Assembly (NCBI GenBank): GCA_036377595.1
Contig: DASUYB010000088.1
Location: 1 to 64,000 of the forward strand
DNA length: 64,000 bases
DNA from: Longimicrobium sp.
Lineage (GTDB): Bacteria > Gemmatimonadota > Gemmatimonadetes > Longimicrobiales > Longimicrobiaceae
Reading direction: 5' to 3'
Below the pieces are notes generated by a model, which made no database searches, had not been told where the DNA came from, and saw only the letters and a list, made by a program, of their open reading frames with translations. The translations under genes were made by a program, and so were the position numbers. This document shows positions 7,872-51,971 of the stretch, one piece after another. Positions within the stretch are counted from its first letter, which is position 1; each line of letters starts with the position of its first letter.

Positions 7872-7937
7872 CGGCGCCCGGCCCCCCCGACCGCGACCCG
7901 TTCGGGCCACCAGACCCCCACCACCGGGAGACGTACG

Positions 7938-28793: not shown

Positions 28794-29885
28794 CTAGAGT
28801 GCTATCTCAAACCTGCGCTGCAGCTGTTCTTCTGCATTTTTGCAGCATGGGTGCCCGGCGACGAGCGTGCTGGGCACTTGAGCATAAAGTGGTTCTATCG
28901 CCAGCGACCGAACGCGCGGAGCGTCACGGACCGGACCGAGAAGCTCTTCCAGGCGTCCAGCATCCGGACGGTCAGCCCACGCGCATGTGAGCCGAAAATA
29001 CGATGGCTGGAGCTCGCGCTCAGCGAACGAGAGCGGTTGGACCAGTCCGGAGGCTTCCACTTTCCTTCGAATCGCGTTCGCGCGCCGCTGCCGTGCACCC
29101 AGACGGCGCAGAGCGGCGGAGAAATCCTCGTTGGCCCACACCGCGGCGACCGGGTGGATACGGAGGTTTAACGCGAACTCATTGGCGAGTCGCAGACCGA
29201 GTTCCCGCTTGTGCCGGTGCGGGTGCTGGGTCAGCCACACGAGGCGTGCGTAGAGGTTGTCGTCGTCGGTGAGCACCGCCCCGCCCTCCCCCGCGAAGAG
29301 CGTCTTCCCAGCCGTAAACGAGGTGACCACCACGTGCGCGAGCGCCCCAGCGGGCCGTCCCTCGCGCGTCGCCCCCAAGCTTTGCGCAGCATCATGGATG
29401 TACCACAGCCCCTTCTCGTCCGCTAGCGAGCGGAGAGCTTCGTCGTCGGCAGGCACGCCAAACAGGTCAACGGCAAGCAGCGCCCGCACTCGGGAGCTAA
29501 GAGCCTCTTGTGCTGCGGCAGGACAGAGGGTGAGTGTCAACGGATCGACATCTCCAAACAGCAATCGGGCACCGACGTGGAGGAACCCCGCGATACTTCC
29601 CCCCCAGGCAAGCGGCGGCGCAACCACCTCCCCCTCCCCGAGGTCCAGCGCGATCGCCACCGCGAGCAGAGCGGACGTGGCGTTGGCCACCACCAGCGCG
29701 TGCCGTTTCCCATAGTGCCGGCGGAGACGGTCCTCGAGCTCGCCCACTGCCCCAGTCCCGAGCAGGTGCTCGTGCGCGGCAGCTGCATCAACCCGCGCCC
29801 GACGCAGATACGCCACCACCGCGGCCTCCACGCCGGGGGCGGCGCTGCCGACGCCCCGCGCCGCCCGTGCGGTCTGGCTAGACAT
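28794..29885 (-). CDS. DegT/DnrJ/EryC1/StrS-type aminotransferase
   Basis: 363 residues from the ATG at 29885, which lies inside the end of the AAA gene (8-base overlap). The fold type I sugar-aminotransferase pattern is clear: V-A-N-A-T-S-A-L near 75, D-A-A-Q-S-L-G-A for cofactor binding, and the internal aldimine lysine in S-F-T-A-G-K-T-L, followed by G-G-A-V-L-T-D-D. Typical members aminate nucleotide-linked keto sugars, but some act on other carbonyls. There are no sugar-nucleotide genes nearby, so the substrate is open. It is the last gene of the second island operon and translationally linked to the ATPase. Confidence 0.82.
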   Translation of the reverse strand: MSSQTARAARGVGSAAPGVEAAVVAYLRRARVDAAAAHEHLLGTGAVGELEDRLRRHYGKRHALVVANATSALLAVAIALDLGEGEVVAPPLAWGGSIAGFLHVGARLLFGDVDPLTLTLCPAAAQEALSSRVRALLAVDLFGVPADDEALRSLADEKGLWYIHDAAQSLGATREGRPAGALAHVVVTSFTAGKTLFAGEGGAVLTDDDNLYARLVWLTQHPHRHKRELGLRLANEFALNLRIHPVAAVWANEDFSAALRRLGARQRRANAIRRKVEASGLVQPLSFAERELQPSYFRLTCAWADRPDAGRLEELLGPVRDAPRVRSLAIEPLYAQVPSTLVAGHPCCKNAEEQLQRRFEIAL

Positions 29886-34548: not shown

Positions 34549-34701
34549 CTCCTCCTCCTTCGTACGAGGTGTCGCCCGGAGCCGCAGTGCCCGCGCGCCT
34601 CAGCGACAACGGAGTGCGGCATTCCGGCACAGTGAAAGATCACCGGCGGCAGTCTGCACCAGTTAGCCTGCCCGGAGCGGCTTGGATGCGCCCGGATCGG
34701 G

Positions 34702-36671: not shown

Positions 36672-38774
36672 TCAGGCTGAGAGACGGTTGATCACGTCGT
36701 TCAGGCGCGTCCTCCACGACGGGAGCTTCCGGTACAGCTTCTCGAACACTCCGTCGTCGATAAAAAACTCGAGTTCGTGCTTCAAGAGGCTTGCGGCGGC
36801 CCGGACGGTGTCCGGCCGGACCTCGTCGTGCCGGCCCAACTCCGCCAGCGCTCTCGCCGCGGCCTCCACGGTCGCCACGGCCTCCTCGCCGAGGGCCACG
36901 GACAGGGCGCCTCCAGCGGGATCGTCGTCGTGCACGTCCTCCGTCGCCGCGTCCAGCACGGCCGGCGGTACCTGCTCCCGGAGGCGCGCGAGGATGTCTT
37001 CGATGCTCTCCACCAACTCGCTGGCCTCTCCCTCCTCGTCGGCGGTCAGGAGCGGGGGAAGCCCCAGGTCGAGCGCCTGCTCGTCCAGCCAGCGCACCTC
37101 ATGCGGCATCAGACGCAGCTTTCCCAAGTCGATCCGGGGCCCGCTCCGGGGAAGACCGAGGACGGACATGATCGATGGGAACGAGGAAGGGTACGGATCC
37201 GCTCCGCGGTCCCCCTTACGGATCGCGTTGCTTCGTGCCTTTTCCATCATCTGTGGAAACAGCCTGGCCAGCACGGTCCAGTAGCTCCGCTCGGGCCGCA
37301 GCTGGCGGCCGTACAGCGTAAGGACCACCAGCCGGCCGCAGAGCACGTCCTGAAAACGCGCGAAGGTGTAGGGCTCCGCCCGCGTGCCCGAAGGTACGTT
37401 GAGCGCTAAGGAAAACGGCGGTTCCGAGACGTCCTGCCGCTGACCCCCGGTTTCGTAGGCGTCCAGGCTCTCGCGGGCGCGCGTGAAGCACTCGCTGAAG
37501 AACGCCTGCTGCCTGGCCTCGCTCCACATCCGGACGGTTACGTAGTGCTCGCCCAAGCCGTGCTTGCGCCAGGGTGCGAATCCGAGTTGCGCCGGCGTTT
37601 CGTCTTGAAATCCCAGCGCCTCCTGGATCTTGGTGGTGATGTGGTGTGCGAGGCCCCGGTAATTCTGCACCCCGAGATCGCCGGGCTCGTGTTTGGGATA
37701 CCACGAGAGGCGCGCGCGCGCATCCTCCGGCGCGGCGTTGAGGATGGCCGCCACGATGTCGCTGGGAAGCGAGGTGAGCCCCACGAGGGGGCCGGTGCAC
37801 AGAGCAGCGGCGTGCAGGAGCACGTCCGGCCCCTGCAGCGGCTGCATGAACCCGTCCGTCTCCCCCTGTTCCCGCAGGTCCCAGTCGGAAACCACGCCGC
37901 TGAACCGCCGTCCCGCCGCGTCGCGGTTGCGCAGCTCCGCGAGCGCCGAACGTCCCTCCTCGAACCCCTGCACTTCGGTGAAGTAGCGCTCCAGACCCTG
38001 CACGATCTGCCTCCGCTGGGCCGCATCGTCCTCCACCACGACCACCGCATACGGCGCCGCTTTGTCCCTCTCCTTGTCCTCTTCAGCCTCGCGGTGCACC
38101 CGCCGCAGGCGTTCCTGGATCCGCGCGCCGAGCTCCTCGGCGGCGCGCAGGTCGCCGTTCTGGACCGCCTGCTGTGCGTCGCTGATCCACTGCTCGAAGG
38201 TGCTCAGATCTTGGAAGGTGCGGGCGAGAGCCGGCCTGCGCGCGCGCACCTTCGCGGCCAAGCGGTCGAGCGCCCGCCGCAGCCCTGCGGGGTCGCCGCT
38301 GGTGTCACGCCGGAAGTTGTGTTCCCACATCAGGAAAGGTCTAGCGCTCAGCACGTGGTCCCTGAGCCACACGTGCACCATCTGAGACACGGGCTCCGCG
38401 CTCGACGCGGCCTCCGCCAGCGCGGCTGGCGGGACGGGAAGGCGCACGAACGGAAATATCAGGCGGGCGGCCTCGCCCCGTTCGTCGCCGAGGGCGACGA
38501 GCGCTCGTCGCGAAAGGAACGAGCAGACGGCCAGCTGCGGGATCTGTCGCTCCGATTCGAAGAGGTCGACGATGAACCTCAGCCCTTCGAACTCGGTCAA
38601 CCTCCCGCTCGCGGGGGCCCACTCGGCTAGGACGACCAGGGGGGCTTCGCGGAGCCTGGTGTAGCGGCGTAGCTCCCGGAGCTCGCGGGGAGAGGTGGCG
38701 ACCGCGTACCCTGCGCGCCTGAGGTAGGTGGTGAACGCTCCCGGGTTCCAGAGGAAAACGGCAGGAGGAGACAT
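36672..38774 (-). CDS. Large protein with two receiver-like domains
   Basis: 700 residues. Residues 1-125 form a degenerate receiver-like alpha/beta domain (A-V-F-L-W-N-P, L-V-V-L-A-E-W, L-A-V-C-S-F-L-S, I-F-P-F-V-R-L-P). A helical, partly coiled region follows (165-240). A second receiver spans ~243-385: V-V-V-V-E-D-D at 245-250, likely phospho-acceptor Asp297 in V-V-S-D-W-D-L, and L-T-S near 334. The C-terminal 310 residues are of unknown type and end in helices. No DNA-binding motif is seen, so the output is probably by protein contact. Its start is 4 bases after the decarboxylase gene stop, and a terminator follows. Confidence 0.72.
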   Translation of the reverse strand: MSPPAVFLWNPGAFTTYLRRAGYAVATSPRELRELRRYTRLREAPLVVLAEWAPASGRLTEFEGLRFIVDLFESERQIPQLAVCSFLSRRALVALGDERGEAARLIFPFVRLPVPPAALAEAASSAEPVSQMVHVWLRDHVLSARPFLMWEHNFRRDTSGDPAGLRRALDRLAAKVRARRPALARTFQDLSTFEQWISDAQQAVQNGDLRAAEELGARIQERLRRVHREAEEDKERDKAAPYAVVVVEDDAAQRRQIVQGLERYFTEVQGFEEGRSALAELRNRDAAGRRFSGVVSDWDLREQGETDGFMQPLQGPDVLLHAAALCTGPLVGLTSLPSDIVAAILNAAPEDARARLSWYPKHEPGDLGVQNYRGLAHHITTKIQEALGFQDETPAQLGFAPWRKHGLGEHYVTVRMWSEARQQAFFSECFTRARESLDAYETGGQRQDVSEPPFSLALNVPSGTRAEPYTFARFQDVLCGRLVVLTLYGRQLRPERSYWTVLARLFPQMMEKARSNAIRKGDRGADPYPSSFPSIMSVLGLPRSGPRIDLGKLRLMPHEVRWLDEQALDLGLPPLLTADEEGEASELVESIEDILARLREQVPPAVLDAATEDVHDDDPAGGALSVALGEEAVATVEAAARALAELGRHDEVRPDTVRAAASLLKHELEFFIDDGVFEKLYRKLPSWRTRLNDVINRLSA

Positions 38775-38778
38775 CGCG

Positions 38779-41319
38779 TTACCCCGCGCGGCCGTTCGTC
38801 AGGATGCCGGTCACCAGCTGCTCCAACAGCCTGTGCAGCGCTTCTTTAAGCGCGGCGATGTCGCCGCCCCTGGGCTTCTCGATCATCTGGTCCGGGTTCA
38901 ATCCGAGTTCCGCCAGCTCTTCCCGGACCTGCGGAATGCCGGCGAACCGGGAAAAGACCACGAGCTGGCCCGGGCTGAGCCGGGCAGTCTCGATGAGCTG
39001 CCTTGCCACGAACAGGCCCGACAGGTCCAGCTCCCGACCCGGGTGGAGCTGGAGGTCCAGGACCACCTTGTCCCATTCCCGAGGGTCCATCGCGCGAATC
39101 TTGTCCGCGGACGGGAACGACTTCGACTCGAGGTACCGAGAGTAGCTGTCGCCAAAGCAGATCGTCCGGGTGATCGAGCTCGCGTCCGCCGTTTCGTCCT
39201 CCACCACCGCCACGCGCAGGCGCCGCATCGCTCTATCGGGACGGCTGACGAAGCGCTCGAGCAGGAACGGCGGGAGCAGCCGGTGGGCGGCATCGAACAC
39301 ATGCTTCGCGAACGCAACGTCGAAGGGCGTCTGGCCGGGCTCGACCGGTCTCTCAATCCACGCGCTGAGCAGCGGGTTCAGCACGAACACACGAAGCAAG
39401 GTGACGGATTTGGCCGAACCGTCCTGAAGTTCCGACAGCGTATCGTCCAGCATCCGCTGTAGAACCGGTATGTAGTCGTTGACGTTGACGTCCGATTTCG
39501 AGATCAGGAACGCGTAGCCCCCCACATTGAACGTTTTCTCGTCAACCGTCATGGTTTCCCAAACCGCCAGCGTGAACGCGTTCAGTTCGGCGAGGGAGAG
39601 GGCGTCGTTCCGGGGGACGAGCGCGAAACAGAAGCCTGTGGTGTCGGGGTGGTTGAACGGGCAAAACCGCAGCCGGCTCCTGGGATCGTGTTCGAAGATG
39701 TCGGCCAGCCTGCGAAAGAGCGCTTGGGTTGCCCGGACACAGTTCGCGATCAACTCTCCATGACCATCGCGGGTCAACGGGATCACCGCCTGCGAGAGGT
39801 AGCAGCTCACCGCGGCCGCGCCTGATCGTGAGCCTTCGAGCGTCCACATCCCCAGGAACCCGCGGAAACCGTCCCGCCGGTCGCCGGCCAGATAGGGCGC
39901 CTCATACGCGATGAAGTCACGCGCCGCGTGGCTGCGGAAGAGGACGGCTCCGCAGGGATAGGGAACGTACCCGAATTTGTGCGGATCCAGCGCCATGGAG
40001 TCGGCATTGCGCAGAGAGCAGATCGCCCGGAAGACCTCCTCCTCGAGGGGGAAGCGCTCTCCTTGTTCCTCGAAGGGTAAGGGCTCGCCGTCCCTGTCCC
40101 GCGCCACTAGGGTCGCGAAGAACCCGCCCAGCGCGGCATCACAGTGGTGCCAGAAGCGGGGCAGCCCGGGATCTTGCCGGAGGTCGTGGAGTTCGTGCAG
40201 GGGGTCCACGGCGGCTTCTTCGGTCGTCCCGCACACGCTGGCGACCATGAGCACGTTCTGACCCTTCTCTTCCAGCTTTTCTCGCAAAGCGTGGAGGCTG
40301 AGGCGGATGCGGTTGTCGACGCCGGTTTGGAGCAGGGCCTCGGACCCCAGCCCTACGAGATCCATGGCCTTCTTCCAGCCGTAATGGCTGGTAACAGGAA
40401 CCAGAACGACCGGCAGTTGCTCGAACTGGTCTCCGGTGAACGCCTTGTTGTACTCGGTCAGGAACCCTGCGAGACCAATTCTCTGAGCCGTACGCAGCTT
40501 CTCTTCGAATTCCCGGGCCAGACTCGAGGGCTGCGCCGCTGGTCCGCCTGCACCGCCTCTCATAGCCAACCAGCGTTTCACGGCTTGGTGCAGCGCCAGG
40601 ACGCTGTCTACGGACAGGTTCCATAACTGCGCCGTGGAGAGGCCGGAGAAGCTGACTCGCTCGGTCCCGACGGCAAGCTCCAGCTCTCCCAGACCCGCGA
40701 AGTGAGGGCGCGACGTCACAAAAAGCCGGAGGGCGAGCGGAAAGAGACGCACGTTCCGGGCGATCCATAGGGCCTCCATGTTAGCCGTCGTGCCACCGCT
40801 GCACAGGTGCCCCCACGAGGGCCCGGCCGTGGCAAGCGCACCGTCCGCGCGATCGGGCTCCGGCACTATCTCGCCGAGCAACTCGGGATACCTCACCATC
40901 CGCGCAAGCGCCGCGACGTACTCGCGCTCCCGGCACACCGTTTCGGGCGCCACCTCCTGCACTACGTTGTTCTGGTTGTACAGCATCCCCGCGAAGTACC
41001 CCACCATTCCCGGAAGCGAGGGATCGCTGACGATGTGGGCCACCTGCCGCGGAGAGTAGAGTGGCGCCCCGCGCTTCAGCCCGGCTAGAATCTCGAACAA
41101 CTCGTCGCGGAGGCGCGCTCGGGTGTGCACGAAGGCGGGATCAGTCTTCTCGTCCTCGCGGATCAGGCGCGGGTCTTCGGGGTGGAAGTTCCGTCTCCAG
41201 AAGACGTGGTCGCGCAGCACGTCTAGGATGAGTTGCTCCAACTCCCCGGCGTTCTCCCCGCGTGGACCCAGGAAGGCAGCGCTGTGCGCCAGACCGGGAG
41301 CGTGGGCGGAGATGGTCAC
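38779..41319 (-). CDS. PLP-dependent decarboxylase fused to a C-terminal receiver
   Basis: 846 residues from a GTG at 41319 with GGAGGT 6 bases upstream; the GTGA overlaps the previous stop. Residues ~40-620 are a group II PLP decarboxylase (glutamate/aromatic amino acid decarboxylase fold): S-G-G-T-T-A-N-M-E-A near 175, H-H-C-D-A-A-L-G-G-F with the cofactor aspartate near 394, and the Schiff-base lysine near 448 in L-D-P-H-K-F-G-Y. Residues ~700-846 are a receiver: V-V-E-D-E, phospho-acceptor Asp755 in V-V-L-D-L-Q-L, S790 in V-V-F-S-R, K815 in I-E-K-P. A decarboxylase under direct receiver control is unusual; phosphorylation probably switches the enzyme. Confidence 0.82.
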   Translation of the reverse strand: MTISAHAPGLAHSAAFLGPRGENAGELEQLILDVLRDHVFWRRNFHPEDPRLIREDEKTDPAFVHTRARLRDELFEILAGLKRGAPLYSPRQVAHIVSDPSLPGMVGYFAGMLYNQNNVVQEVAPETVCREREYVAALARMVRYPELLGEIVPEPDRADGALATAGPSWGHLCSGGTTANMEALWIARNVRLFPLALRLFVTSRPHFAGLGELELAVGTERVSFSGLSTAQLWNLSVDSVLALHQAVKRWLAMRGGAGGPAAQPSSLAREFEEKLRTAQRIGLAGFLTEYNKAFTGDQFEQLPVVLVPVTSHYGWKKAMDLVGLGSEALLQTGVDNRIRLSLHALREKLEEKGQNVLMVASVCGTTEEAAVDPLHELHDLRQDPGLPRFWHHCDAALGGFFATLVARDRDGEPLPFEEQGERFPLEEEVFRAICSLRNADSMALDPHKFGYVPYPCGAVLFRSHAARDFIAYEAPYLAGDRRDGFRGFLGMWTLEGSRSGAAAVSCYLSQAVIPLTRDGHGELIANCVRATQALFRRLADIFEHDPRSRLRFCPFNHPDTTGFCFALVPRNDALSLAELNAFTLAVWETMTVDEKTFNVGGYAFLISKSDVNVNDYIPVLQRMLDDTLSELQDGSAKSVTLLRVFVLNPLLSAWIERPVEPGQTPFDVAFAKHVFDAAHRLLPPFLLERFVSRPDRAMRRLRVAVVEDETADASSITRTICFGDSYSRYLESKSFPSADKIRAMDPREWDKVVLDLQLHPGRELDLSGLFVARQLIETARLSPGQLVVFSRFAGIPQVREELAELGLNPDQMIEKPRGGDIAALKEALHRLLEQLVTGILTNGRAG

Positions 41320-41879
41320 GAGGCACCTCCGGAGCGGGGAAGATGATACGAGGGAAAGGTTTCCCGCAGCTCCTTCACCTCCCGCCACGCCTCCTCGGTC
41401 ATGGGTTGCAGTCGACCTAGCGTCTCCACCAGCGACGCGGGCCGTGCCGGCAGTCGGCGGAACGCGAAGCTGCCCTGCTCCTGTTCGTGCTTGCCGGCAC
41501 GGTAGCGGTGAAACAGGTGGAGGCAGGCGTTCAGGTGGCTGAGGCGGAGGACTTCGGGATCGAACCAGGTCAGCAGGACCACGGGAAGCAAGTAGCCCCG
41601 CTCGCGGAGATCGGCGAAGAAGCGAAGCCCGGGCGAATCACGCATCGTGGTCCACGATGCATACGGGGTGTGCGTGTCCAGGATGATTCGCCTGACATCA
41701 GCCATCCCGTTGCCCTCGTTCTCGCTGGGCAACGAGGAGCCGGCGATGACGGTGGACGTACCTGCCGCAGGAGGCAGGACTGGACAACTGCGTAGTTCAG
41801 CGGGGGGATGGGGATCGCCCGGTATGTCGCGGATGCTTGCACTCAGGCCCGCAATCCTGGTAATGACGAGTGTAGTCAT
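41316..41879 (-). CDS. Degenerate receiver-like protein
   Basis: 187 residues with GGAGGAGG upstream. The layout fits a receiver fold: an N-terminal strand T-T-L-V-I-T-R, then I-I-L-D-T-H-T-P with an aspartate after the third strand, V-V-L-L-T-W-F-D-P with the switch threonine, and F-R-R-L-P in place of the K-P pair. The acidic pair after the first strand is missing, so normal Mg-dependent phosphorylation is doubtful. The stop overlaps the decarboxylase start by 4 bases, so a stoichiometric complex with the decarboxylase is plausible. The fold call is inferred from pattern, not from strong similarity. Confidence 0.5.
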   Translation of the reverse strand: MTTLVITRIAGLSASIRDIPGDPHPPAELRSCPVLPPAAGTSTVIAGSSLPSENEGNGMADVRRIILDTHTPYASWTTMRDSPGLRFFADLRERGYLLPVVLLTWFDPEVLRLSHLNACLHLFHRYRAGKHEQEQGSFAFRRLPARPASLVETLGRLQPMTEEAWREVKELRETFPSYHLPRSGGAS

Positions 41880-41910
41880 GATTACCTCCTCCGGATGATG
41901 TTGCCGAGCT

Positions 41911-41922
41911 CATCTATAGATG
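41911..41922. promoter_or_regulatory. Perfect palindrome CATCTATAGATG
   Basis: A 12-base palindrome, unusually AT-rich for this region, lies 32 bases upstream of the degenerate receiver gene in a 152-base gap. TATAGA could be a -10 box of an internal promoter or the palindrome an operator. No -35 is evident. Confidence 0.25.
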
Positions 41923-42031
41923 CAACCGGAGCTTGAGGGCGCCGTCCGACGGATTTCTCCGTCCATGCCTGTTTCCACCGTCGTCCAGACGACGCCTCGA
42001 CCCGGGCTGACCCTCAGCAGGATGAGCGGCT

Positions 42032-42793
42032 TCATTCGCCACCCGAGACCGTCCAACCCGTCCGCATCTCAATGAAGGGCTTCAACATCTTGTCGCGCAG
42101 GACACCGAGTTCCGCTATGGCGCGTTCTTCGCCGTCCTCGAACGCAGCCTTGAGGCGGACCAGGTCATGCTCGATTTGCCGACTCCTTGCCACTGCCTCT
42201 TCGAATCCCTCCCGGGTATAACAGAGGTGCAGGATCTGCAGCGCGTTCTCAAGCTCCTCATCCTCATCGGCCCCATTTACATAAGCGTCGAACGCAGCCT
42301 TCAACTCCTCGGTCCATTCCTGCGACGCTTCGAACGCACGAACCTGCCTGGCCAGCGCGCCCAAGCGAGAGCCAGGGCCCGCCAGCTCCTCGCGGCTATG
42401 AAAACGAAGCAGTGTTTCACCTGCCAACTGCAATTGTGCGACCGACCGCCGCCAAACTTCCGGAAACCCCGCCGGGGGCGAGGAGAGATGGCAGCTGACC
42501 ACCAGCTTGCTTCCGGCCAGCCGGTCGTCTAGGCAGTTCGTCAAATCCTCGATGAGGTGGTCGGTTGTTCGCTGAGGGTCATCACGTGGGTACCGCGAAG
42601 TGTTGGTTGCCTGATCCACCCGGTATCCACGGATCAGCACGAGCGAGCGCTCGGTGCCGTCACTGTAAACGACCCACGGCTCATGGGTATCCTTCCGCCC
42701 CCAGCCCCACTCCGCGACGAATTCATCCGCATGGGCGTTTCCCTGTTCTTCCGGGAGAAGCCAACGAGTAAGGACGGATACGATACGGTGCAT
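42032..42793 (-). CDS. Hypothetical protein of the phosphorelay operon
   Basis: 253 residues, 2 bases after the stop of the giant kinase-like gene. The N-terminal half is alpha/beta with W-V-V-Y-S-D-G-T-E-R-S-L-V-L-I-R-G-Y and S-K-L-V-V-S-C-H-L. The C-terminal half is acidic and helical (E-E-L-K-A-A-F-D-A-Y-V, E-R-A-I-A-E-L-G-V-L-R-D), probably a coiled coil. No family is recognised. Its place suggests a partner or modulator of the kinase-like protein. Confidence 0.6.
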   Translation of the reverse strand: MHRIVSVLTRWLLPEEQGNAHADEFVAEWGWGRKDTHEPWVVYSDGTERSLVLIRGYRVDQATNTSRYPRDDPQRTTDHLIEDLTNCLDDRLAGSKLVVSCHLSSPPAGFPEVWRRSVAQLQLAGETLLRFHSREELAGPGSRLGALARQVRAFEASQEWTEELKAAFDAYVNGADEDEELENALQILHLCYTREGFEEAVARSRQIEHDLVRLKAAFEDGEERAIAELGVLRDKMLKPFIEMRTGWTVSGGE

Positions 42794-42795
42794 TT

Positions 42796-45700
42796 TCAGA
42801 ACTCTCCCCGAGGGCGGCGACCGAGAGCCATTATGGCCGAGGTGAGGCTCAACTTTGAAATTTGGTCCTGAATGTAGTGCTGTACGAGCGAGTACGGAAT
42901 GAATTTCACGTCCGAATCAGACCGCGGGATGCCGCGCCCCGAGTCCACCACGACGTAGGGGACGGCGTCGCAGATATTCTTCAGGAAAGTGGGTGCTTCA
43001 ACGCCGAAGAGGCGATGCACCCCATCCAGGATACCCTGGTGGATGATAACCATCTCCGCCTGAACGTCAACGTACTGTGTATCGGCCCCGGTGATCCAGT
43101 GACTCCTGACGGCGCCGTCCCTGGCGCGGCTGACTACGAACCGCCGCGGGGGGGAAAGTGATGAAGCGCTCGTCTCCCGCGCCGCGGGGGCGGTTCCGCC
43201 AATCGCGTAAAGTGGCTCCTCCTTGTCGTTCACGCGGAGGTGCGTACAGATGAACACGTTGGCGGCCCCGGCCACCTCGAGCCGGGTCGGTGGCGCCTCC
43301 GCGCCGCTGATGTAGGAGTAGACCTTTCTCAGGTTTTCGGAGTCGTTGTCGTTCACGCGCTCGGACGCATGCTCGGCCAAACGTTCGTCGATGACGATCA
43401 CCCGAAGCAGGCCAGCCTCGACCATCTGCCACGGCAACGGCCAATGTTGCCGCATGGCTTCCGGTTCGTTCTCGTCGGGAAAGGTTGGCGAGAAAATCGG
43501 CACGAAATCCGCCGAGGCCTTGTCGAGCACCATGTAGGCATGGCGCTGTTGAAGCAGCGGTGGCATGGATTCATCATCCTGCCGGCTACAATTGAGAAAC
43601 GACCTCACCACGCCCTCTCCCCCCGTTCCATGCCGATCGTAGATGACCAGCCGCCGCCCACAAACATCCGGAGGGGGGGTCGTGCGGAATTCGACCGGAT
43701 TGTCTCTCACCGGGAAATCGAACACTGCGCGGGACCATCCCTTTTCGGAGGCATGCGGGTCGGTTCCCTGCGCGCGAAGCTCCAGGTGGAGAAGGAGGAG
43801 CACCCTCTCAGGGTTCTCCCCATCGCGAAGGAAACGTTTCGTCACCCATGTCCTCCAGAGCGCACTGGTGAACTTGCTCACCTCCAGGGGATCGGATGCG
43901 TTCCGGAACAGCGTTTGGATGATCTCGTCCAACGTCTCTGCGACAACCGCCCGGCCTCGTTCGTGTAGCGCCCGGATCGGGGCGATTCCTGCGGCATCGG
44001 CGCCGGTGATCAGCACGCGAAACGGAAGTTGCGAAAGAAGCGGTTCCAGGGTTTCAAGATCTCCCATCGACGGATGCACCTGGATCAGGGCGAACTTGAA
44101 CCTGGACGCGTGTTTTGCCAAGTGCTTCTGCAGCGAGGAAAGAGAGTCGAAGATCCAGATTCCTCGCAGGTGGAGCAGGTTCCTCGGTGTCTCGTCCATG
44201 ACACCCGCAGCTTCCGGCGCTACGATGCATACGAGCTGCGCGCGCAGCATCTTGAAGCGATATCGAAGAATCCTGTCTTTTCCCAAGACGAGGGTCAGGG
44301 CGTCCTTGAGACCCTTCTGTGAGTTGGTGTCGCTTCCGCGCAGGAGGTTCGCACAGATCCGCATCTCCGCGAGACCCCAGTTCGCCTTTTTCAGGCTGCC
44401 GTTTTCCTCGATCAGATCCTCATTCCGTATCTTGTCGAACCTTTCCTGGAAAACCCTGAGGTACCTGTACAGTTCGCGGTCCGTGCTGGCGTCCCACAGG
44501 TTCGTGGTCAGCTCGACCGTGTGGTGATCCGGATCCTCGTCGACGCCAGGGGGATCGACGTGAAGCCTAACCTCGATCGTCGCCTCGGCGCCCTGCGCAA
44601 GAAGTTGAGTCTTGTGGTGTTTCGCCACATTGCGCACGAAGTTCTCCAGCAGGCCGTATACGGCAAGGTCACCCTGCGCTCCCGGCAGCGCCACCTCCAC
44701 GTCCACCCGTTGATGCATCACGGGCCTGAGCCATCGCTTGTCCCCAGGTTCAGCCGCGGCTTGCAGCGATCCGTAGGGGAACGTATACGGAATCGTGGTA
44801 GGATAGGTGAACGTGGCCACTTCCCCCTCTCCGGCCCCGCTGTCTTCGTAGGTGACGCCGAGCTCGGTTCCCCGGATGCTCACGTGGAATTGCAGGCCAC
44901 ACGGCGTGCCATCGATGACCACCCCCTCGTGGTTCACCCGATACCCGACTCCCTCGTTGCGGGCAAGGTTGTCGGAAAGCAGTGTGTTCTGAATGAGGGA
45001 GAGCATTACTTCGCGATAGAACAGCGCAGAGCGGGTGGTCGTAAGCGGCTCCGTGGTCAGCTCCGCCAGGAAGTCACCCTTTCTCTGGATCAGGTAGTCG
45101 AGACGCCGTTTCAGCTGTGACGCCACGTTGAAGTGCTCGATGCCAGCTGTGCCCCCAAGTCTCCTGTGAATTGCCTCCAGCGTGGACCGGGGAGTCACAT
45201 GCGAACCGAGGTTGTGCGACAGGTTGCGAGACATGATCGCAGCCACCGCGAACTTGCGGGACTGCTCGTGGGTCTTCTGCGTATGCTGCTGAAGGTAGCT
45301 CGCGCGGTTCCTCAGAGTGAGCAGTTCCGCCAGCAGGGCGTCGTCGATGCGCGTATTGTCCGTGACGTGGACGATGAGACCGCCGGCGGAGACCTCCTTG
45401 TCCTGCTCCAGCGAGTCGCGCGAGGCATAAAGCCTCACTTCCGGGATGTCGCGTGCAACGAACGCATTGAACGTGAGCACCTTGATCAGCTTGATGACGA
45501 GCTCGTCGTCGAGGTTCCAGCCATCGTTGCGGCGAAACACCGCTAGGGACGCGAACACCCGCTGAAAATCCTTCAGGATGCGATCGAGCTCGTCGGTGAA
45601 CGGTTCCGACGACTCTCCGGGTGCATCGTTGAACAGCCAGGTACGAAGTTGGCTCGATACCTCCTCCAGATCTTGATTATTGATGGAAAGATACTGTCCG

Positions 45701-47430
45701 TACTCGAACTCTTTCTGGAAACGCAGCTCGCGGACCGCCCGAGCCAGGAGCGGTGTCGCGGCATCCTCGAGCCAGATTCGGAACGTAGGATTGAGGATGG
45801 TGTCGGGCAGAGTCACCGTGAGCTGCTCCACGCTTCCGTCCCTTCGCAGGCGCACGGTCAGTGGCGCGGAGGCTTCTGCTCGGCCGTTCAGGCGCTTGAC
45901 CACGACGCAGGCTTTGTCGGGTAGTTCCCGGAACAAGAAGTTGGTGACCTTGAACCCCTCCACGAACTGCAGCGAGAGAGCGTAGTACAGGAGAAGTCGG
46001 CGGCTCGCGTCCCTGTCTTGGAAGAAGACGGGCACGTTCCGCGTCCAGTTCCCAGTCACCAGGTCCCACTGGAGAAAAAGAACCGCGGCGGGATTCCGGA
46101 TGGCGCCATAGTTGAGAAGCGACTTCGTGTCACCCTTCCAGACTCGGAACTGTTCTTTGGAATTGTGTCGCGTTGGAACGCGGACGTCCATGAATAGCCT
46201 ACGGATGTCTACCGAAGCGGCCGGCGTGACGCCAGGCGAATCAGAGGTATCCGCTTCGCCGCACGGAAGCCGATGATGCAGAACGTAGAGCTTCAAGCGG
46301 TCCTTGACCGTCAGCTCTGCATTCAGGTTCAGGCCACCAGCCAGCTTCTGAAGCGTCCGCCGGAGGCCGGAGTTGACGCTCTTCGCATCCGCGCTGCCCT
46401 TCTTGCGCTGCTTCGAATCCTGTTCGTGGTAGGGGAAGATCGAAAAGATGCGCAGGGCCGCGGCTTCCAACCAATCATCCGGCTTGATGCGGGTGCTGTA
46501 CTCGACGCAAAGAGAGGGGATGGGGCGTAGGGAGTCGTCCCGGCGAGGTCCCTCCCCAGCGGGCGGAGGACAGAGCCGGAAGCCAAGCTCCTGCAGTCGT
46601 TCGACCGCGGGCGCAACTCTCGCCGCGGTGACCGGCCGGTAGGTCCGCCAGCCGCGGTCCGCGAAATCTTGGAGCGCCCGGCGGATGAACGAGAGGTATT
46701 TCAGTCGTTCGTCCTCCTCGTGCAACGTATGCAGGTCCTCCACCTCCTCGAACGAGTGCGACCAGCACGCGTGGTCTCCGCCCATCTCGGAGATGACCAC
46801 CATGCCACCCGTACGCACCAGCTCTCTGCTCTGCGCAATCCCCTCATTCCAATCGTCAAGGTGGTGGAGCAGGAGAAACAACAGGCAGACGTCGAACGGC
46901 TCGGTGGCGGTAGGCCCGTATTCGGACAGGGACTTCTGGATCAACTCCACCCTGATTCGCCTCCGGCAGCCGGCGTCTTCAATCTCAAACGATGTCGGGA
47001 CCGCCTCAGCGCCCCACTCGGGGGGGGCAGGGAGGGAGGGAGCATAGGTGAGGGGACCGTCGGGCATCGCTGCGGCAAGCTCCCGGTACAGGCGGGAGAG
47101 CATCGCCGGGCTCGTGTCGATCCCGACCAGTTCGATCGTCGTGGGGCCGTCGCCCTCGTGGGCGAAGACGCGGCTGAGCAGGAGGGCCGTGAGCCAGCCA
47201 CCCCCGATCCCGGCATCCAGGATCCTCCAGGTTTTTCGTACGGCTCCGCATTCGTCGCGCAACAGACGCAGGAGCAGCGAGAAAAGGTCGTCCGCGAGTT
47301 TCCGCCGAGTTTCAATGGAGTCGGTCGGATGCACAAGCCGCTGGTAGCAGTCGACTCCCTCGGGTGTGTGCGAGGTGACCCCTCGCTTCGTTCGCACGGC
47401 GCCGACAAGCGGCGTGACGTCCGTACTCAT
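42796..47430 (-). CDS. Giant methyltransferase-histidine kinase-like protein
   Basis: 1544 residues. Residues ~35-260 are a class I SAM-dependent methyltransferase: motif I I-L-D-A-G-I-G-G-G-W near 70-79, V-G-I-D-T-S-P near 102, and F-D-V-C-L-L-F-L-L-L-H-H-L. Residues ~260-700 are of unknown type. A divergent dimerisation/phospho-acceptor helix follows with M-S-R-N-L-S-H-N-L-G-S-H, His739 the likely acceptor. An HATPase-like region has L-L-E-N-F-V-R-N-V-A-K-H near 927-938, with Asn930/934 as N-box residues. Residues ~1060-1544 form a further unknown region containing V-V-V-D-S-G-R-G-I-P. No membrane segment is seen. The ATG overlaps the livK stop by 4 bases, tying it to the importer. Confidence 0.72.
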   Translation of the reverse strand: MSTDVTPLVGAVRTKRGVTSHTPEGVDCYQRLVHPTDSIETRRKLADDLFSLLLRLLRDECGAVRKTWRILDAGIGGGWLTALLLSRVFAHEGDGPTTIELVGIDTSPAMLSRLYRELAAAMPDGPLTYAPSLPAPPEWGAEAVPTSFEIEDAGCRRRIRVELIQKSLSEYGPTATEPFDVCLLFLLLHHLDDWNEGIAQSRELVRTGGMVVISEMGGDHACWSHSFEEVEDLHTLHEEDERLKYLSFIRRALQDFADRGWRTYRPVTAARVAPAVERLQELGFRLCPPPAGEGPRRDDSLRPIPSLCVEYSTRIKPDDWLEAAALRIFSIFPYHEQDSKQRKKGSADAKSVNSGLRRTLQKLAGGLNLNAELTVKDRLKLYVLHHRLPCGEADTSDSPGVTPAASVDIRRLFMDVRVPTRHNSKEQFRVWKGDTKSLLNYGAIRNPAAVLFLQWDLVTGNWTRNVPVFFQDRDASRRLLLYYALSLQFVEGFKVTNFLFRELPDKACVVVKRLNGRAEASAPLTVRLRRDGSVEQLTVTLPDTILNPTFRIWLEDAATPLLARAVRELRFQKEFEYGQYLSINNQDLEEVSSQLRTWLFNDAPGESSEPFTDELDRILKDFQRVFASLAVFRRNDGWNLDDELVIKLIKVLTFNAFVARDIPEVRLYASRDSLEQDKEVSAGGLIVHVTDNTRIDDALLAELLTLRNRASYLQQHTQKTHEQSRKFAVAAIMSRNLSHNLGSHVTPRSTLEAIHRRLGGTAGIEHFNVASQLKRRLDYLIQRKGDFLAELTTEPLTTTRSALFYREVMLSLIQNTLLSDNLARNEGVGYRVNHEGVVIDGTPCGLQFHVSIRGTELGVTYEDSGAGEGEVATFTYPTTIPYTFPYGSLQAAAEPGDKRWLRPVMHQRVDVEVALPGAQGDLAVYGLLENFVRNVAKHHKTQLLAQGAEATIEVRLHVDPPGVDEDPDHHTVELTTNLWDASTDRELYRYLRVFQERFDKIRNEDLIEENGSLKKANWGLAEMRICANLLRGSDTNSQKGLKDALTLVLGKDRILRYRFKMLRAQLVCIVAPEAAGVMDETPRNLLHLRGIWIFDSLSSLQKHLAKHASRFKFALIQVHPSMGDLETLEPLLSQLPFRVLITGADAAGIAPIRALHERGRAVVAETLDEIIQTLFRNASDPLEVSKFTSALWRTWVTKRFLRDGENPERVLLLLHLELRAQGTDPHASEKGWSRAVFDFPVRDNPVEFRTTPPPDVCGRRLVIYDRHGTGGEGVVRSFLNCSRQDDESMPPLLQQRHAYMVLDKASADFVPIFSPTFPDENEPEAMRQHWPLPWQMVEAGLLRVIVIDERLAEHASERVNDNDSENLRKVYSYISGAEAPPTRLEVAGAANVFICTHLRVNDKEEPLYAIGGTAPAARETSASSLSPPRRFVVSRARDGAVRSHWITGADTQYVDVQAEMVIIHQGILDGVHRLFGVEAPTFLKNICDAVPYVVVDSGRGIPRSDSDVKFIPYSLVQHYIQDQISKLSLTSAIMALGRRPRGEF

Positions 47431-48626
47431 CGTTCACCCGAGCCGGCGGCGGGCGGGTTCGCCACGGCGGAATCGAGGGCGGCGACGAGGCGCCCGTTCT
47501 GGAAGCGGGCCAACACCCAGGTGCTTCTCGAATTCCCGTCCGGACCGATGGAGATTTTCCCGCTGGCCGTCTCCACCTGCGAGAAAGACCGCAGCGTCCG
47601 CTGGACCTGTTCAGGGTCGGTGGTTCCCGCCCGAGTGATCGCGTCGGCCAGCAGCTTCATCGTGGTGTAGCCGAATGCCGCGTCGTAGTTAGGCATTCCT
47701 CCGAACCGCGCCCTATAGGCGGTGATGAACGAATGGGTGACCGGGCTCACCTGTTGGTTCAAAGTGTAGGACGGAACGGCCACCACTACGCCCTCCAGCA
47801 GCGCTGGCGTGAGCTGACCCCGGTCCGCAGCCATGGCAACGTCGTGCACGCCGAGGATCCGCGACGTCTGCCGAAGCCCGCTCTCGTCCACCGCCCGCAG
47901 GAGCGCGGGCATGTTGTTATAGTATCCGATCAGGATGATCAGCTCCGGCTGCATGCTTCTGACCCTGACCATCACGTTCCGGATCATGGCGAAATCGTCC
48001 CCGGTAAACGATTCGGCTGCAACTGACGTGGCGCCCATCTGTCTGAGTCCCGGAGTGAGCACTTCCTGCGCGAGGCGCTGGAACGCCGGGTTTTCCTGAA
48101 AGATGATGGCAACCTTCTTGGGTTTGAGGGTGCTGGCGTGTGCGAGCAGCATATCCCCCTCTTCGTGGATCCCCGGGTAGATGCGGAAAACATTGTCGGC
48201 GTTCGCGGGAATCGACTCGTCCATGGCGAAGACGAACTGGAGGACGCCGGCGCGCTCCGCGACGATGGGCTTGACCGCCAGGCTCACCCCAGTCATGGAG
48301 GTGATGAGGAAGGAGGCGCCGCTCGTGCTAATAAGCTTCTGCGCCGCCGCGGCGCCGTCCGCCGGCTGCCCCCTGCTGTCCTCGAAGACGATTTCGAGGC
48401 GGCGCCCCAGGATCCCCCCGTTCGCGTTGATCTCCGCTACGGCGAGTTGCATCCCTCGCTGCTCAGACTCTCCCAGGAAGGAGACCGGCCCGGTAAGGGG
48501 CAGGACAGCCCCGACCCGGATTTCCGGGCCGCCGGACGATGTCGGCCGGCGTGCGAGCAGGATGCCGAGCACGAGCACCGCGGCCAGAACAGCCGCGCCA
48601 ATGATCCAGCCGGTCTTGCGTTTCAT
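47427..48626 (-). CDS. livK: Amino-acid ABC importer substrate-binding protein
   Basis: 399 residues from the ATG at 48626, overlapping the livF stop. An N-terminal hydrophobic helix (G-W-I-I-G-A-A-V-L-A-A-V-L-V-L-G-I-L-L-A, residues ~6-25) is a signal anchor or uncleaved signal; there is no lipobox. A Peripla_BP_6 type I fold follows: V-G-A-V-L-P-L-T-G-P-V-S-F-L-G, G-G-I-L-G-R-R-L-E-I-V-F-E-D-S and Y-D-A-A-F-G-Y-T-T. Members bind branched-chain amino acids, amides, urea or aromatic compounds, so the ligand is open. It is the last importer gene before the kinase-like gene and could be both transport and sensing subunit. Confidence 0.85.
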   Translation of the reverse strand: MKRKTGWIIGAAVLAAVLVLGILLARRPTSSGGPEIRVGAVLPLTGPVSFLGESEQRGMQLAVAEINANGGILGRRLEIVFEDSRGQPADGAAAAQKLISTSGASFLITSMTGVSLAVKPIVAERAGVLQFVFAMDESIPANADNVFRIYPGIHEEGDMLLAHASTLKPKKVAIIFQENPAFQRLAQEVLTPGLRQMGATSVAAESFTGDDFAMIRNVMVRVRSMQPELIILIGYYNNMPALLRAVDESGLRQTSRILGVHDVAMAADRGQLTPALLEGVVVAVPSYTLNQQVSPVTHSFITAYRARFGGMPNYDAAFGYTTMKLLADAITRAGTTDPEQVQRTLRSFSQVETASGKISIGPDGNSRSTWVLARFQNGRLVAALDSAVANPPAAGSGER

Positions 48627-49393
48627 CTTGACCTCGACGTGCTGGAGGAAGGATGGTCGACCGCTGTGTCGCCGATGCGTTCCCAGTAGAGGTCCAGGAA
48701 TCCCTCTGGCTTGTGCAGCCAATCCTGGGGGTGATCCGTCTGGCGTGCCGTTCTCCCGGCGACGAGGACTACGGCGCGGCTGGCAACGCGCAATGCTCCC
48801 GTTACGTTCTGCTCGACGAGAAGGACTCCCAGACCCGCTTCGCGGGCGAGCGCCGGCACCGCGTCGAGAATACCGTGGGCCACAGCCGGAGCGACCCCAG
48901 CGGAAGGCTCGTCCAGGAGGAGCACACTGCGGCACCGGACCAGGGCCATCGCCACAGCCAATGCCTGGCGCTCGCCCCCCGAGAGCAATCCGGCGCGAAC
49001 ATCGAGGCGTGTCCGCAACACGGGGAAGATTTTGAGGGCCAGTAGGCGCCGCTCGCCCGCCGGCGTGAGCGCATCGCCGGCAGGACCGATCGTCAGGTGT
49101 TCTCGTACGCTGAGGCTCGGGAATATCCGTCCCCCCTGCATTGCGTACGCAAGACCCAGTCTGACGCGCTCATGGGCAGGCAAGGCCGTGACGTCGCGCC
49201 CATCCAGACACACGCTCCCCCGGCGGGGTGTCAAAACGCCGGCGGCCACGTGCAGCAGTGTGGACTTGCCTGCGCCGTTCGGTCCAAGCACGGCAACGAT
49301 CTCGCCCCTACCCACCTCGAGCGTGATGCCGTGCAGCACCTCTTTCTGCCCGAAGCCGGCATGTATCTCCCGGATGCACAGCCCGGTGCTCAC
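48623..49393 (-). CDS. livF: Branched-chain-type ABC importer ATPase (LivF)
   Basis: 256 residues. Walker A G-P-N-G-A-G-K-S-T, Q-loop in Y-A-M-Q-G-G, signature L-S-G-G-E-R-Q, and Walker B V-L-L-L-D-E-P are all present. Its length and the L-S-V-R-E-H-L segment fit LivF rather than LivG. It powers import with LivG at the cytoplasmic face of LivHM. It overlaps livG and livK by 4 bases each, so translation is coupled throughout. The C-terminus has an extra ~20 residues ending in serines. Confidence 0.9.
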   Translation of the reverse strand: MSTGLCIREIHAGFGQKEVLHGITLEVGRGEIVAVLGPNGAGKSTLLHVAAGVLTPRRGSVCLDGRDVTALPAHERVRLGLAYAMQGGRIFPSLSVREHLTIGPAGDALTPAGERRLLALKIFPVLRTRLDVRAGLLSGGERQALAVAMALVRCRSVLLLDEPSAGVAPAVAHGILDAVPALAREAGLGVLLVEQNVTGALRVASRAVVLVAGRTARQTDHPQDWLHKPEGFLDLYWERIGDTAVDHPSSSTSRSR

Positions 49394-50157
49394 GGCAACG
49401 CCTCCATGCCCAGGTACGCGGCACGCACCGTGGCGTCCCGCAGCACTTCGTCCGAAGTGCCGGAGAGGCTAATCCGTCCTGCTTCCATGAAGCAGACCCG
49501 ATCTGCCACTTCAGCCACTACACCCATGTCGTGCTCAATCACCACGACTGTGGATCCTTCATTCGCGATCTTCCGGATCGTGCCCAGCAGTTGTGGCACC
49601 AGGTGGGGAGCGACACCCGCGGCAGGCTCGTCCAGCAGCAGCACGTCGGCTCTCGCCGCCAGGAGGCGGGCGAGCGCAACGAGTTTCTGCTGTCCAAACG
49701 ATAGGTTCCCTGCCAACTCGTCCGCGCGGACGTGCAACCCTACGGATTTAAGCAGAGACGAGGCCCGTTCCTTGAGGCTCTCTTCCTGGACGCGAACGCT
49801 CCGCCGCCACAAGATCGCCCGCCAGACGCGCTCTCCCGATTGGCCGGGGAACGCCGCGAGCACGTTGTCGAGCACGGTCATCCGCCCGAAGAGCCGTACG
49901 TCCTGGAACAGTCGACCGATCCCCAGCCGTGCCACCTTCCAGGGAGCGAGTCCGTCCAGCCGTTGTCCGTAACAGCGGATCGCCCCGGCGTCCGGGCGTA
50001 GGTAGCCGCTGATGAGGTTGAACAGCGTGGTCTTGCCCGCCCCGTTCGGCCCGATCAGTGCGCTGACGCGGCCGGGCGCGAAGCGGAGGGATACGTCGTT
50101 GACGGCGTCGATTCGACCGAATGACTTCCGGATCCCGATCAACTCGAGCGGCATCAT
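49390..50157 (-). CDS. livG: Branched-chain-type ABC importer ATPase (LivG)
   Basis: 255 residues from the first of two adjacent ATGs (50157). Walker A G-P-N-G-A-G-K-T-T-L, Q-loop in R-L-F-Q-D-V-R-L-F, signature L-S-F-G-Q-Q-K-L-V-A-L-A-R, Walker B V-L-L-L-D-E-P-A-A-G, and H-loop E-H-D-M are intact. The L-S-F-G-Q-Q-K signature and the C-terminal A-Y-L-G segment are typical of LivG. It pairs with LivF as a heterodimeric ATPase. Confidence 0.9.
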   Translation of the reverse strand: MMPLELIGIRKSFGRIDAVNDVSLRFAPGRVSALIGPNGAGKTTLFNLISGYLRPDAGAIRCYGQRLDGLAPWKVARLGIGRLFQDVRLFGRMTVLDNVLAAFPGQSGERVWRAILWRRSVRVQEESLKERASSLLKSVGLHVRADELAGNLSFGQQKLVALARLLAARADVLLLDEPAAGVAPHLVPQLLGTIRKIANEGSTVVVIEHDMGVVAEVADRVCFMEAGRISLSGTSDEVLRDATVRAAYLGMEALP

Positions 50158-51023
50158 GCGAAGCGGTACTCGCCGATGAGCCCCTGAGGACGGAAGCGCA
50201 TCAGCAGGATTATCAGCAGGCCATAGATCACCTGCCGGAGGTTGGCGGCAACGGCATCGGGGAGGCCGAGGAAACGGAGCGCCTCGGGAAGAGTCACCAT
50301 GAGCGCGGTGCCGGCGAGGGGGCCGGAGAAGTTGCCCGCCCCTCCGATGACGAGGATGGACAGGATAAAGACGGACTCGAGCAGGGTGAAGCTCGTTGGA
50401 TCCACATAGCGGAGTTGGCTGGCGAAGAGTGCGCCGGCGACCGCGGCGAAGCCGCTGGCCAGGGCGAAGGCCGAGACTTTGAACACGGTCACGTTCTTCC
50501 CCAGGGCAGTGGCGGCGACCTCGTCTTCCCTGATTGTCTTGAGCGTACGTCCGTAAGGAGAATGTCCCACCAGGTAGAGCAGCCCCCCACACCCGGCCGA
50601 CACGGTTCCCGTGAAGAGCGCCAGCGTTGCAGGCGAGTCGATCACGATCCCGAAAAGCGTGGGACGGGGAATTCCCGAAATGCCGTACGGCCCGTGCGTG
50701 AGGTCCACCCAATTGTAGAGAACCGCGAAAACGACGGCCTGGAATCCGAGCGATGCCAGGACGAAATAGTCACCGCGCAGGCGGAGCGACGGGAGAGAGA
50801 TCGCGAAGCTGAGGAGAAGGTTGAGCGTGACCGCAAGGATCACTGCCAGCCAGAAACCGGCCCCCAGGTTGACCATGCTGAGGGCGCTCGTGTAGGCGCC
50901 CAGCCCGAAGAACGCGGCGTGACAGAGCGAGAGCAACCCTGCGTATCCCACGAGCAAGTTCAGAGACCACGCCAGGATCGCGTAGATGCCGAGCATTATG
51001 AGAAGGTGGAGAAGGTAGCTCAT
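50154..51023 (-). CDS. livM: Branched-chain-type ABC importer permease (LivM)
   Basis: 289 residues, about nine hydrophobic helices. Typical LivM features: A-I-L-A-W-S-L-N-L-L-V-G-Y-A-G-L-L-S-L-C-H-A-A-F-F-G in helix 2, and the coupling loop E-D-E-V-A-A-T-A-L-G-K-N-V. It forms the inner-membrane channel with LivH. It overlaps livH by 4 bases and livG by 4 bases. Confidence 0.9.
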   Translation of the reverse strand: MSYLLHLLIMLGIYAILAWSLNLLVGYAGLLSLCHAAFFGLGAYTSALSMVNLGAGFWLAVILAVTLNLLLSFAISLPSLRLRGDYFVLASLGFQAVVFAVLYNWVDLTHGPYGISGIPRPTLFGIVIDSPATLALFTGTVSAGCGGLLYLVGHSPYGRTLKTIREDEVAATALGKNVTVFKVSAFALASGFAAVAGALFASQLRYVDPTSFTLLESVFILSILVIGGAGNFSGPLAGTALMVTLPEALRFLGLPDAVAANLRQVIYGLLIILLMRFRPQGLIGEYRFA

Positions 51024-51904
51024 GCGGCAGCCTCCTCAATACGGCGGCGGCGGCCCAGCAGGCCTTCCGGACGGAGGAGAAGAACGACCAGGAGCATCAC
51101 GAACGTGACGGCCTCCTGCCAGCGTGCCCCGCCCTGCCACACGGCGAGGCTCTGAAGCGTCCCGAGTGCCAAGGCTCCCAGGACTGCGCTCTCGAACACA
51201 CCCAGTCCGCCGAGGATGACCGCCACGGCTGCATTCAGCACTGCGGAAAGCCCCATGTGTGGGCCGAGCCCCGCGTCGAGGGAAAGCAGAATGGACGCGA
51301 TCGCGGCCACGCCCGATCCCACGCCGAACACGACCGCCCGAATATGCGCCGGATCGATGCCCGCCGCTGACACCAGTTCGGGATCGTCGCGCATGGCCCG
51401 CAGCATCCTCCCCCACGAGGAGCATCGCAACGCGACAACCAACGCAGCGAACACACTCAGGAACACGATCACGGCCACGACCTGCACCTCCGTCAGGATC
51501 AACTCGCCCACCCTGAACGTCTCCTGGGCTTCCGCCCCAAGCACCCTAGTCTGATTTCCATAGACCAGAGCGATGAGGTTGACCACGACGATGTAAACCC
51601 CGACCGAGCTGAGCAAGTGGATTGACGGCGAAGCACGTCGTCGGTGCAACGGCGCATGCACGGCTTTCTCCACCCCAATCCCCAGCGCCCCCGCTGCGAC
51701 GACCGTGAGGACGGACGCGGCAGAGAGGGGAAGCTTCCAAACCACCAAGAACGTATAGATGAAATATCCGGCCGCAGCGTAGACCGCCCCGTGCGCGATG
51801 TGGAAGACCCGGGTGGTGTTGTAGATCAATCCGAATCCCAGTGCGAGCAGGGCGTAGACGCAGCCCGTTACCCACCCGTTCACGATCGTTTGCAAGAAGA
51901 GCAT
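51020..51904 (-). CDS. livH: Branched-chain-type ABC importer permease (LivH)
   Basis: 294 residues from the ATG at 51904; a GTG at 51967 would add 21 residues. Typical LivH features: G-C-V-Y-A-L-L-A-L-G-F-G-L-I-Y near the start, H-I-A-H-G-A-V-Y in the second helix, and the coupling loop M-R-D-D-P-E-L-V-S-A-A-G-I-D. It is the first gene of the importer. A tandem 10-base repeat and possible promoter boxes lie just upstream. Confidence 0.88.
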   Translation of the reverse strand: MLFLQTIVNGWVTGCVYALLALGFGLIYNTTRVFHIAHGAVYAAAGYFIYTFLVVWKLPLSAASVLTVVAAGALGIGVEKAVHAPLHRRRASPSIHLLSSVGVYIVVVNLIALVYGNQTRVLGAEAQETFRVGELILTEVQVVAVIVFLSVFAALVVALRCSSWGRMLRAMRDDPELVSAAGIDPAHIRAVVFGVGSGVAAIASILLSLDAGLGPHMGLSAVLNAAVAVILGGLGVFESAVLGALALGTLQSLAVWQGGARWQEAVTFVMLLVVLLLRPEGLLGRRRRIEEAAA

Positions 51905-51971
51905 GCGGCGATTCTGCTGGAATGCGACCGCTCCCAACGGACTGACGGTGACCTCACGAAGTAACACCCGG

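Follow-up and report, generated by a model that had tools for sequence, protein, structure and literature searches.

A ten-gene operon joining an ABC importer to a putative histidine kinase phosphorelay with exchangeable input and output modules

In Detocs, a phage-sensing kinase works with effectors fused to receiver domains; in CqsA-CqsS and LqsA-LqsS, a signal-making pyridoxal phosphate (PLP) enzyme stands beside a kinase, and Lsr imports autoinducer-2 (AI-2) for an internal read-out. In the RRNPP/Rgg-SHP circuits, a self-made peptide is re-imported by Opp and sensed intracellularly, and some such circuits have links with radical S-adenosylmethionine (SAM) peptides (PMC7564271, PMC13361665). 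The vWA-ternary and TCAD conflict systems possess receivers without histidine kinases (PMC7159879, PMC8195603). The operon described here lies on a 64,000-nucleotide stretch of DNA from Longimicrobium sp. (positions 1 to 64,000 of contig DASUYB010000088.1, assembly GCA_036377595.1; hereafter the window) and combines an ATP-binding cassette (ABC) importer with a large kinase-like protein and several receiver-carrying proteins. Its types of parts (importer, kinase, receiver) and its two-component logic are known; the system as a whole, and several of the domains in it, match no described family that we found. Comparison with relatives suggests a patchily distributed, horizontally spread phosphorelay that is coupled to an importer, has exchangeable input and output, and senses an imported, possibly self-made signal, a reading to which we assign a probability of about 0.6.

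All ten genes are encoded on the minus strand and form one compact operon: livH, livM, livG, livF and livK are followed by the gene of a 1544-aa methyltransferase/histidine-kinase protein and then by those of p253 (253 aa), p187 (187 aa), a decarboxylase-receiver fusion and p700 (700 aa). Six junctions are 4-base overlaps (livH/livM, livM/livG, livG/livF, livF/livK, livK/kinase and p187/decarboxylase), the kinase and p253 genes are separated by 2 bases and the decarboxylase and p700 genes by 4, and the only sizeable gap, of 152 bases, lies upstream of p187. A terminator-like hairpin with a 12-pair GC-rich stem and a weak T tail (36642-36611, minus strand) closes the set 3' of the p700 gene. 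The open reading frames (ORFs), their order, the junctions and the terminator agree with the original prediction, made from the sequence of the window; its coordinates held overall, and two starts had to be mended, that of the decarboxylase (GTG at 41319, giving 846 aa) and that of livK (48626).

When the 1544-aa protein was used whole as the query, plasmids, viral contigs and 394 further genomes from the phylum gave no match. A pattern search with its H-box (RNLSHNLGSHV) matched a single viral contig, where an operon follows the same plan as in the window: kinase, small protein, receiver-AAA+ protein and large protein. Using an alignment of these two kinase cores, we retrieved relatives from GTDB genomes, amounting to 61 kinase loci (designated by L numbers) from about 20 bacterial lineages, including Bacteroidota, Chlorobiota, KSB1, Acidobacteriota, Nitrospirota, Planctomycetota, Myxococcota, Elusimicrobiota, Verrucomicrobiota, Chloroflexi, TM6, Clostridia, Cloacimonadota and others, and from contigs of archaeal metagenome-assembled genomes (MAGs). 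The unit is nevertheless rare: the phylum of the window has it in 1 of 395 genomes and a second phylum in 5 of 296, usually as one copy per genome, and the queries tried did not find it in plasmid and phage collections. Far from never co-occurring, the homologues recur together across phyla, and dozens of unrelated genomes bear out the claim that importer and kinase form a unit with the receiver proteins; because of this recurrence, the arrangement cannot be ascribed to chance.

The kinase protein (42796-47430, minus strand) begins with a class I methyltransferase recognized by Pfam (approximately residues 44-233), continues with an undefined middle region and then presents an SHN-type kinase core with H-box (residues 733-744), N-box (929-937) and G-box (1018-1023). 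Across 46-52 members the family shows the H-box consensus M[SA]RN[ML]SHN[IL]GSHV, a YLQxRMDFIA motif, the N-box ENxIRNxAKH, the D-box DN and the G-box WGLxEM; the phosphoacceptor His and the N-box and G-box residues are invariant or nearly so, the window protein included. The N-terminus is variable, with weaker methyltransferase matches in four relatives (L016, L028, L035 and L067) and GAF domains in L055. At the other end, a domain of about 450 aa (42796-44295 in the window, minus strand) carries invariant DER, IHxG, SGRG and Lys signatures and a common xHG, the window version having IDER, IHxG and SGRG. This domain has no sequence relative in the PDB; it is new, undescribed, conserved and possibly enzymatic. 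In the closest kinase relative (L008, 9995-12608), a frameshift in the MAG splits the H-box and the core between frames.

The importer is a complete HAAT (Liv) system with H, M, G, F and K subunits, all on the minus strand, in which Pfam recognizes BPD_transp_2 twice, ABC_tran twice and Peripla_BP_6 once. It consists of two permeases, LivH (51020-51967, PF02653, E 1e-31, with a true start possibly at ~51904) and LivM (50154-51023, PF02653, E 3e-41), two ATPases, LivG (49390-50157, PF00005, top NCBIfam model LivG) and LivF (48623-49393, PF00005, top NCBIfam model UrtE/LivF), and the substrate-binding protein LivK (47427-48626, PF13458, E 3e-52), whose nearest solved structures are Leu/Ile/Val and other amino-acid binding proteins. 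The predicted direct passage from importer to kinase gene recurs in relatives: 46 loci reach 5.5 kb or more upstream of the kinase, and 27 of them have a full Liv cassette there in the same orientation; the median gap between the first Liv gene and the kinase is 1.5 bases, and 62 of 144 junctions overlap. In three loci (L028, L029, L040), livK adjoins the kinase and the remaining subunits are nearby. Single-domain CheY-like receivers are encoded near livH in L017, L018, L020, L044, L053, L028 and L029.

The window LivM shares 69% identity with the system LivM of KSB1, 61% with those of Acidobacteria and Chloroflexi and 56% with that of Nitrospira, as against at most 42% with LivM proteins from its own order. 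No second LivM or other Liv permease was found in the window's genome, nor any in the other sampled genomes of the genus; in three of the four genomes that hold both the system and another LivM, the second copy is clearly more remote. On a phylogenetic tree, one branch parts 30 system LivM from a small background sample of 21 (support 98/86; 99% of bootstrap trees). By these sequence comparisons, the system LivM is a dedicated importer lineage, a single clade apart from the others sampled. Other loci have different importers, Opp-like (SBP_bac_5, BPD_transp_1) in L007, L009, L011, L047 and L065 and with an NMT1-type binding protein in L050. Mapped on the kinase tree, the Liv importer type changes 8 times, at least 5 of them forced, and the input modules have therefore been exchanged.

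Immediately after the kinase, p253 (42032-42793, minus strand) resembles, in position and motif, the follow-on genes of the 27 loci compared, which share one near-invariant His (His102 in p253). It combines an alpha/beta part with a helical C-terminus (LHxCL...LRDxLL), common to a subset of the family (hhalign E 3.9e-6), and its AlphaFold2 (AF2) model reaches a mean predicted confidence (pLDDT) of 76. We considered and rejected p253 as a histidine phosphotransfer (HPt) protein: the model shows alpha/beta structure plus helices instead of a four-helix bundle, and no HPt match appeared at E<=0.001. In relatives, two types of receiver protein of about 600 aa come after the follow-on gene, both starting with an inactive receiver and a receiver, and ending with an effector in type A and a conserved C-terminus in type B. 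The last protein of the operon, p700 (36672-38774, minus strand, with a partial PF00072 match), is of type B, with an inactive N-terminal receiver, a second receiver at residues 244-385 and the conserved C-terminal region, and it belongs to a 35-member cluster whose members hold the same operon position elsewhere. The small p187 (41316-41879, minus strand) is a homologue of the domain with which p700-type proteins begin (hhalign E 1.8e-7) and, like that domain in p700, lacks the acidic pocket; judged by this homology, it is the inactive-receiver domain standing alone, so that p187 and the decarboxylase-receiver together would fill the place of a type-A protein. The three receiver-like proteins predicted downstream of the kinase are present. 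Read by eye, the decarboxylase fusion has a complete set of receiver residues (VVEDE, LDL, FSR, EKP), and so has p700 in its second receiver (VEDD, SDWDL, LTS, PKH), whereas p187 is of the inactive type.

The predicted fusion of a PLP decarboxylase to a receiver also stood up. The protein (38779-41319, minus strand) has a Pyridoxal_deC match (PF00282, E 6e-16), the motif DPHKFGYVPYP and a C-terminal receiver; its match to the tyrosine decarboxylase (TDC) model TIGR03811 (243 bits) falls far below the 905-bit equivalog cut-off, and we call it only a TDC-like PLP decarboxylase. A Pfam scan made no call for the kinase core, p253, p187 or the receiver of the decarboxylase, and the assignments of the kinase core and of that receiver accordingly draw on motifs and homologues. 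Among the loci found, the fusion exists only in the window and in L039, from TM6 (28% identity over residues 14-807, E 7e-110); plasmid-borne decarboxylase homologues were set aside, as they belong to no such operon. Decarboxylation as the general output of the system, as first proposed, did not hold, since relatives encode HEPN-motif, AAA+/sigma54-type or HerA/TrwB-type modules downstream. Seven of their receiver-carrying proteins end in a domain with an invariant RNxxxH, a HEPN-like motif, and other receivers are joined to a sigma54-type AAA+ domain, a TrwB/HerA-like ATPase or a TCAD9/APH-like region. PIN-like motifs occur in L036 and L046; the L046 stretch has no PDB match, and we do not claim PIN identity.

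In most loci, the genes between the binding protein and the kinase, or adjoining the importer, encode small-molecule enzymes. About 20 loci have a methyltransferase, either adjoining the kinase or fused to it (as a separate gene in L015, L018, L020, L023, L024, L034, L038, L041, L042, L043, L045, L049, L054, L057 and L066), and radical-SAM enzymes are present in about 11 (L007, L009, L011, L017, weakly, L019, L024, L030, L037, L039, L047 and L051). PLP enzymes occur in five, among them a PALP protein in L008, an aminotransferase and an ornithine-type decarboxylase in L044 (Chloroflexi) and a decarboxylase in L026, the decarboxylases of the last two adjoining the importer. An AlaRS-like protein (L030), an isopropylmalate-type dehydrogenase (L028) and an NAD-synthase-like protein (L029) are among the further enzymes. 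Upstream of the kinase in L025, a protein starting FDVTLREGEQTPG (7343-8677) is isopropylmalate/homocitrate-synthase-like by eye and fits the theme of amino-acid chemistry. In three Opp-type loci, a short ORF adjoins the radical-SAM gene and carries the motif N-x-G-S-x-G-[RK]-G-K-x-F (L007:4734-5003, L047:4645-4842 and L009:3481-3597), making these ORFs candidate precursor peptides. Translation of all loci, 2.18 million codons in total, shows the motif in these three only, and the starts of the L007 and L047 ORFs differ mainly at third codon positions, a coding-like pattern.

Around the operon, a gene of the DruA family, one component of Druantia (PF14236, E 7e-35; 52224-53987, minus strand), is located immediately upstream of livH, and a group II intron (34696-36512, minus strand) lies immediately behind the terminator, its reverse transcriptase being split into two overlapping frames (34788-35492 and 35318-35851) in a frameshift-like manner. 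A few kb from the operon, at 28794-31692 (minus strand), an AAA+ ATPase gene is followed by an overlapping gene for a DegT/DnrJ-type aminotransferase.

The sequences themselves establish the gene set and its compact operon, its conservation, the kinase and receiver motifs, the dedicated importer lineage and the exchange of modules, whereas the ligand, the route of the phosphate, the control of fused effectors by receivers and the self-made nature of the signal are inferred. A phosphorelay, as the original prediction had it, appears to be the natural reading of this gene set. The dedicated ABC importer and its binding protein, of the Liv type in the window, would take up a small amino-acid- or peptide-like molecule, which a SAM-dependent enzyme (in the window, the methyltransferase within the kinase) might make, modify or read out. 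The soluble, cytoplasmic SHN-type kinase would sense the ligand, autophosphorylate and hand the phosphate to receiver proteins, the probable acceptors being the conserved receiver pair, p700 and, in the window, the split p187 and decarboxylase-receiver. The window output would be the PLP amino-acid decarboxylase, the arrival of the signal turning amine production on or off, and relatives would switch other effectors in the same position, with a ribonuclease-like (HEPN) motif or ATPases. Sensing of amino acids, also part of the original prediction, is plausible for the window, where LivK is nearest to Leu/Ile/Val binding proteins; it fits less well the relatives with Opp or NMT1 importers.

Several observations weigh against this phosphorelay or parts of it. 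Pfam does not recognize the kinase, and the sole PDB matches of the core profile, CpxA-type kinases, are sub-threshold (E 0.04). The D-box is ambiguous, one alignment having T at the position of the Asp (TTN); a pairwise alignment with L009 retains the Asp, in LWDA, and its loss is, given this, probably an alignment artefact. p253 is not tied to a phosphotransfer fold and had no PDB fold match at E<=0.001. On the output side, the HEPN and PIN assignments are at motif level, and the AF2 model of the HEPN-like domain is poor (pLDDT 56, low-confidence helical), with no significant fold match in Foldseek. On the input side, about 8 Liv-type loci have no separate SAM enzyme gene, and the short-peptide motif is only a lead because its pattern was defined after inspection. 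Finally, some taxon labels may be binning errors, since nearly all relatives are MAGs.

Within the importer-coupled phosphorelay, a self-made signal is the boldest step, suggested by the fact that the enzymes adjoining these amino-acid or peptide importers belong mostly to amino-acid, peptide or methyl chemistry. Carried further, and tentatively, the operons might represent a new class of cell-to-cell signalling or alarm in bacteria and archaea, in which the operon makes a modified amino acid or peptide and re-imports it, and the kinase fires receiver-fused effectors that would be toxic in some lineages and produce amines in that of the window.

Alternatively, and with a fairly low likelihood, the unit could be an anti-phage or abortive-infection two-component system with a Detocs-like logic, the kinase sensing infection, the receivers firing toxic effectors, and the importer and enzyme supplying a co-signal. 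The sparse distribution across phyla and the HEPN-like motifs make defence a serious alternative, which the original prediction also allowed for and which is compatible with a self-made signal; putative PIN/DUF3800 motifs in receiver-carrying or neighboring proteins, the inactive-receiver (iREC) and TCAD9 domains known from work on conflict systems, and the adjoining DruA gene point the same way. However, PADLOC matches no core component apart from a weak methyltransferase hit, plasmids and phages yielded no such unit to the queries tried, a dedicated nutrient-type importer is unusual in phage defence and the nuclease calls come from motifs.

Control by a nutrient, the reading nearest to the original prediction, seems rather unlikely; here an amino acid from the environment would enter through the importer and be sensed by the kinase, and the relay would activate its decarboxylation for acid resistance or amine metabolism. 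This reading agrees with the amino-acid binding proteins nearest to LivK, with the TDC-like nature of the decarboxylase and the conservation of its receiver fusion in a TM6 bacterium, and with the PLP decarboxylases of another type next to the importer in L044 and L026. However, just 4 of about 62 loci have a decarboxylase, elsewhere this kinase/importer core serves other outputs, also with Opp-type importers, the very sparse distribution (1 of 395 genomes in one phylum, 5 of 296 in another) does not look like that of a housekeeping catabolic switch, and the operon has no amine antiporter gene. A chance abutment of two operons, one for the importer and another for signalling, perhaps with a second start point in the 152-base gap, is highly improbable, contradicted as it is by recurrence in dozens of loci, the 4-base overlaps and the dedicated LivM clade.

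The kinase family, the follow-on protein and the receiver pairs are largely invisible to Pfam, NCBIfam and PADLOC and yet occur in about 20 lineages. Should the operon make the molecule that it imports, it would be a new way for microbes to communicate, with toxic or metabolic outputs attached; if the signal is not self-made, it would still be a new layout coupling transport, enzymology and phosphorelay. One operon yields testable predictions on ligand, phosphotransfer and effector control.

The original prediction knew of no described system with this composition, and we found none in the literature searched, mainly outside subscription papers and preprints, where a prior description is possible. 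The mad1-8 set of MADS was not found, the sole PADLOC match being a weak one of the methyltransferase region to mad2. The vWA-ternary and TCAD systems resemble the unit in the receiver, iREC and TCAD9-like modules among its effectors, but vWA and MoxR are missing here. With the streptococcal re-import of peptides by RRNPP/Rgg-SHP, the likeness is one of functional analogy only, the receptor there being a transcription regulator and here a histidine kinase. CqsA-CqsS, LqsA-LqsS and Lsr share with the unit a PLP enzyme by a kinase and the import of a signal, but their proteins differ. Detocs (DtcA, DtcB and DtcC), for which PADLOC gave no match, though its 2023 library may not include that system, similarly unites a kinase, a spare receiver and a receiver fused to a swappable effector, but is not known to have an importer or SAM or PLP enzymes. 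As in two-component phosphorelays, the putative relay has a CpxA-like core with H-, N- and G-boxes and receivers with complete Asp/Thr-Ser/Lys sets; unlike them, it has its own H-box, a fused or adjacent SAM enzyme, a new IDER/SGRG C-terminal domain, an ABC importer in the operon and paired inactive and active receivers.

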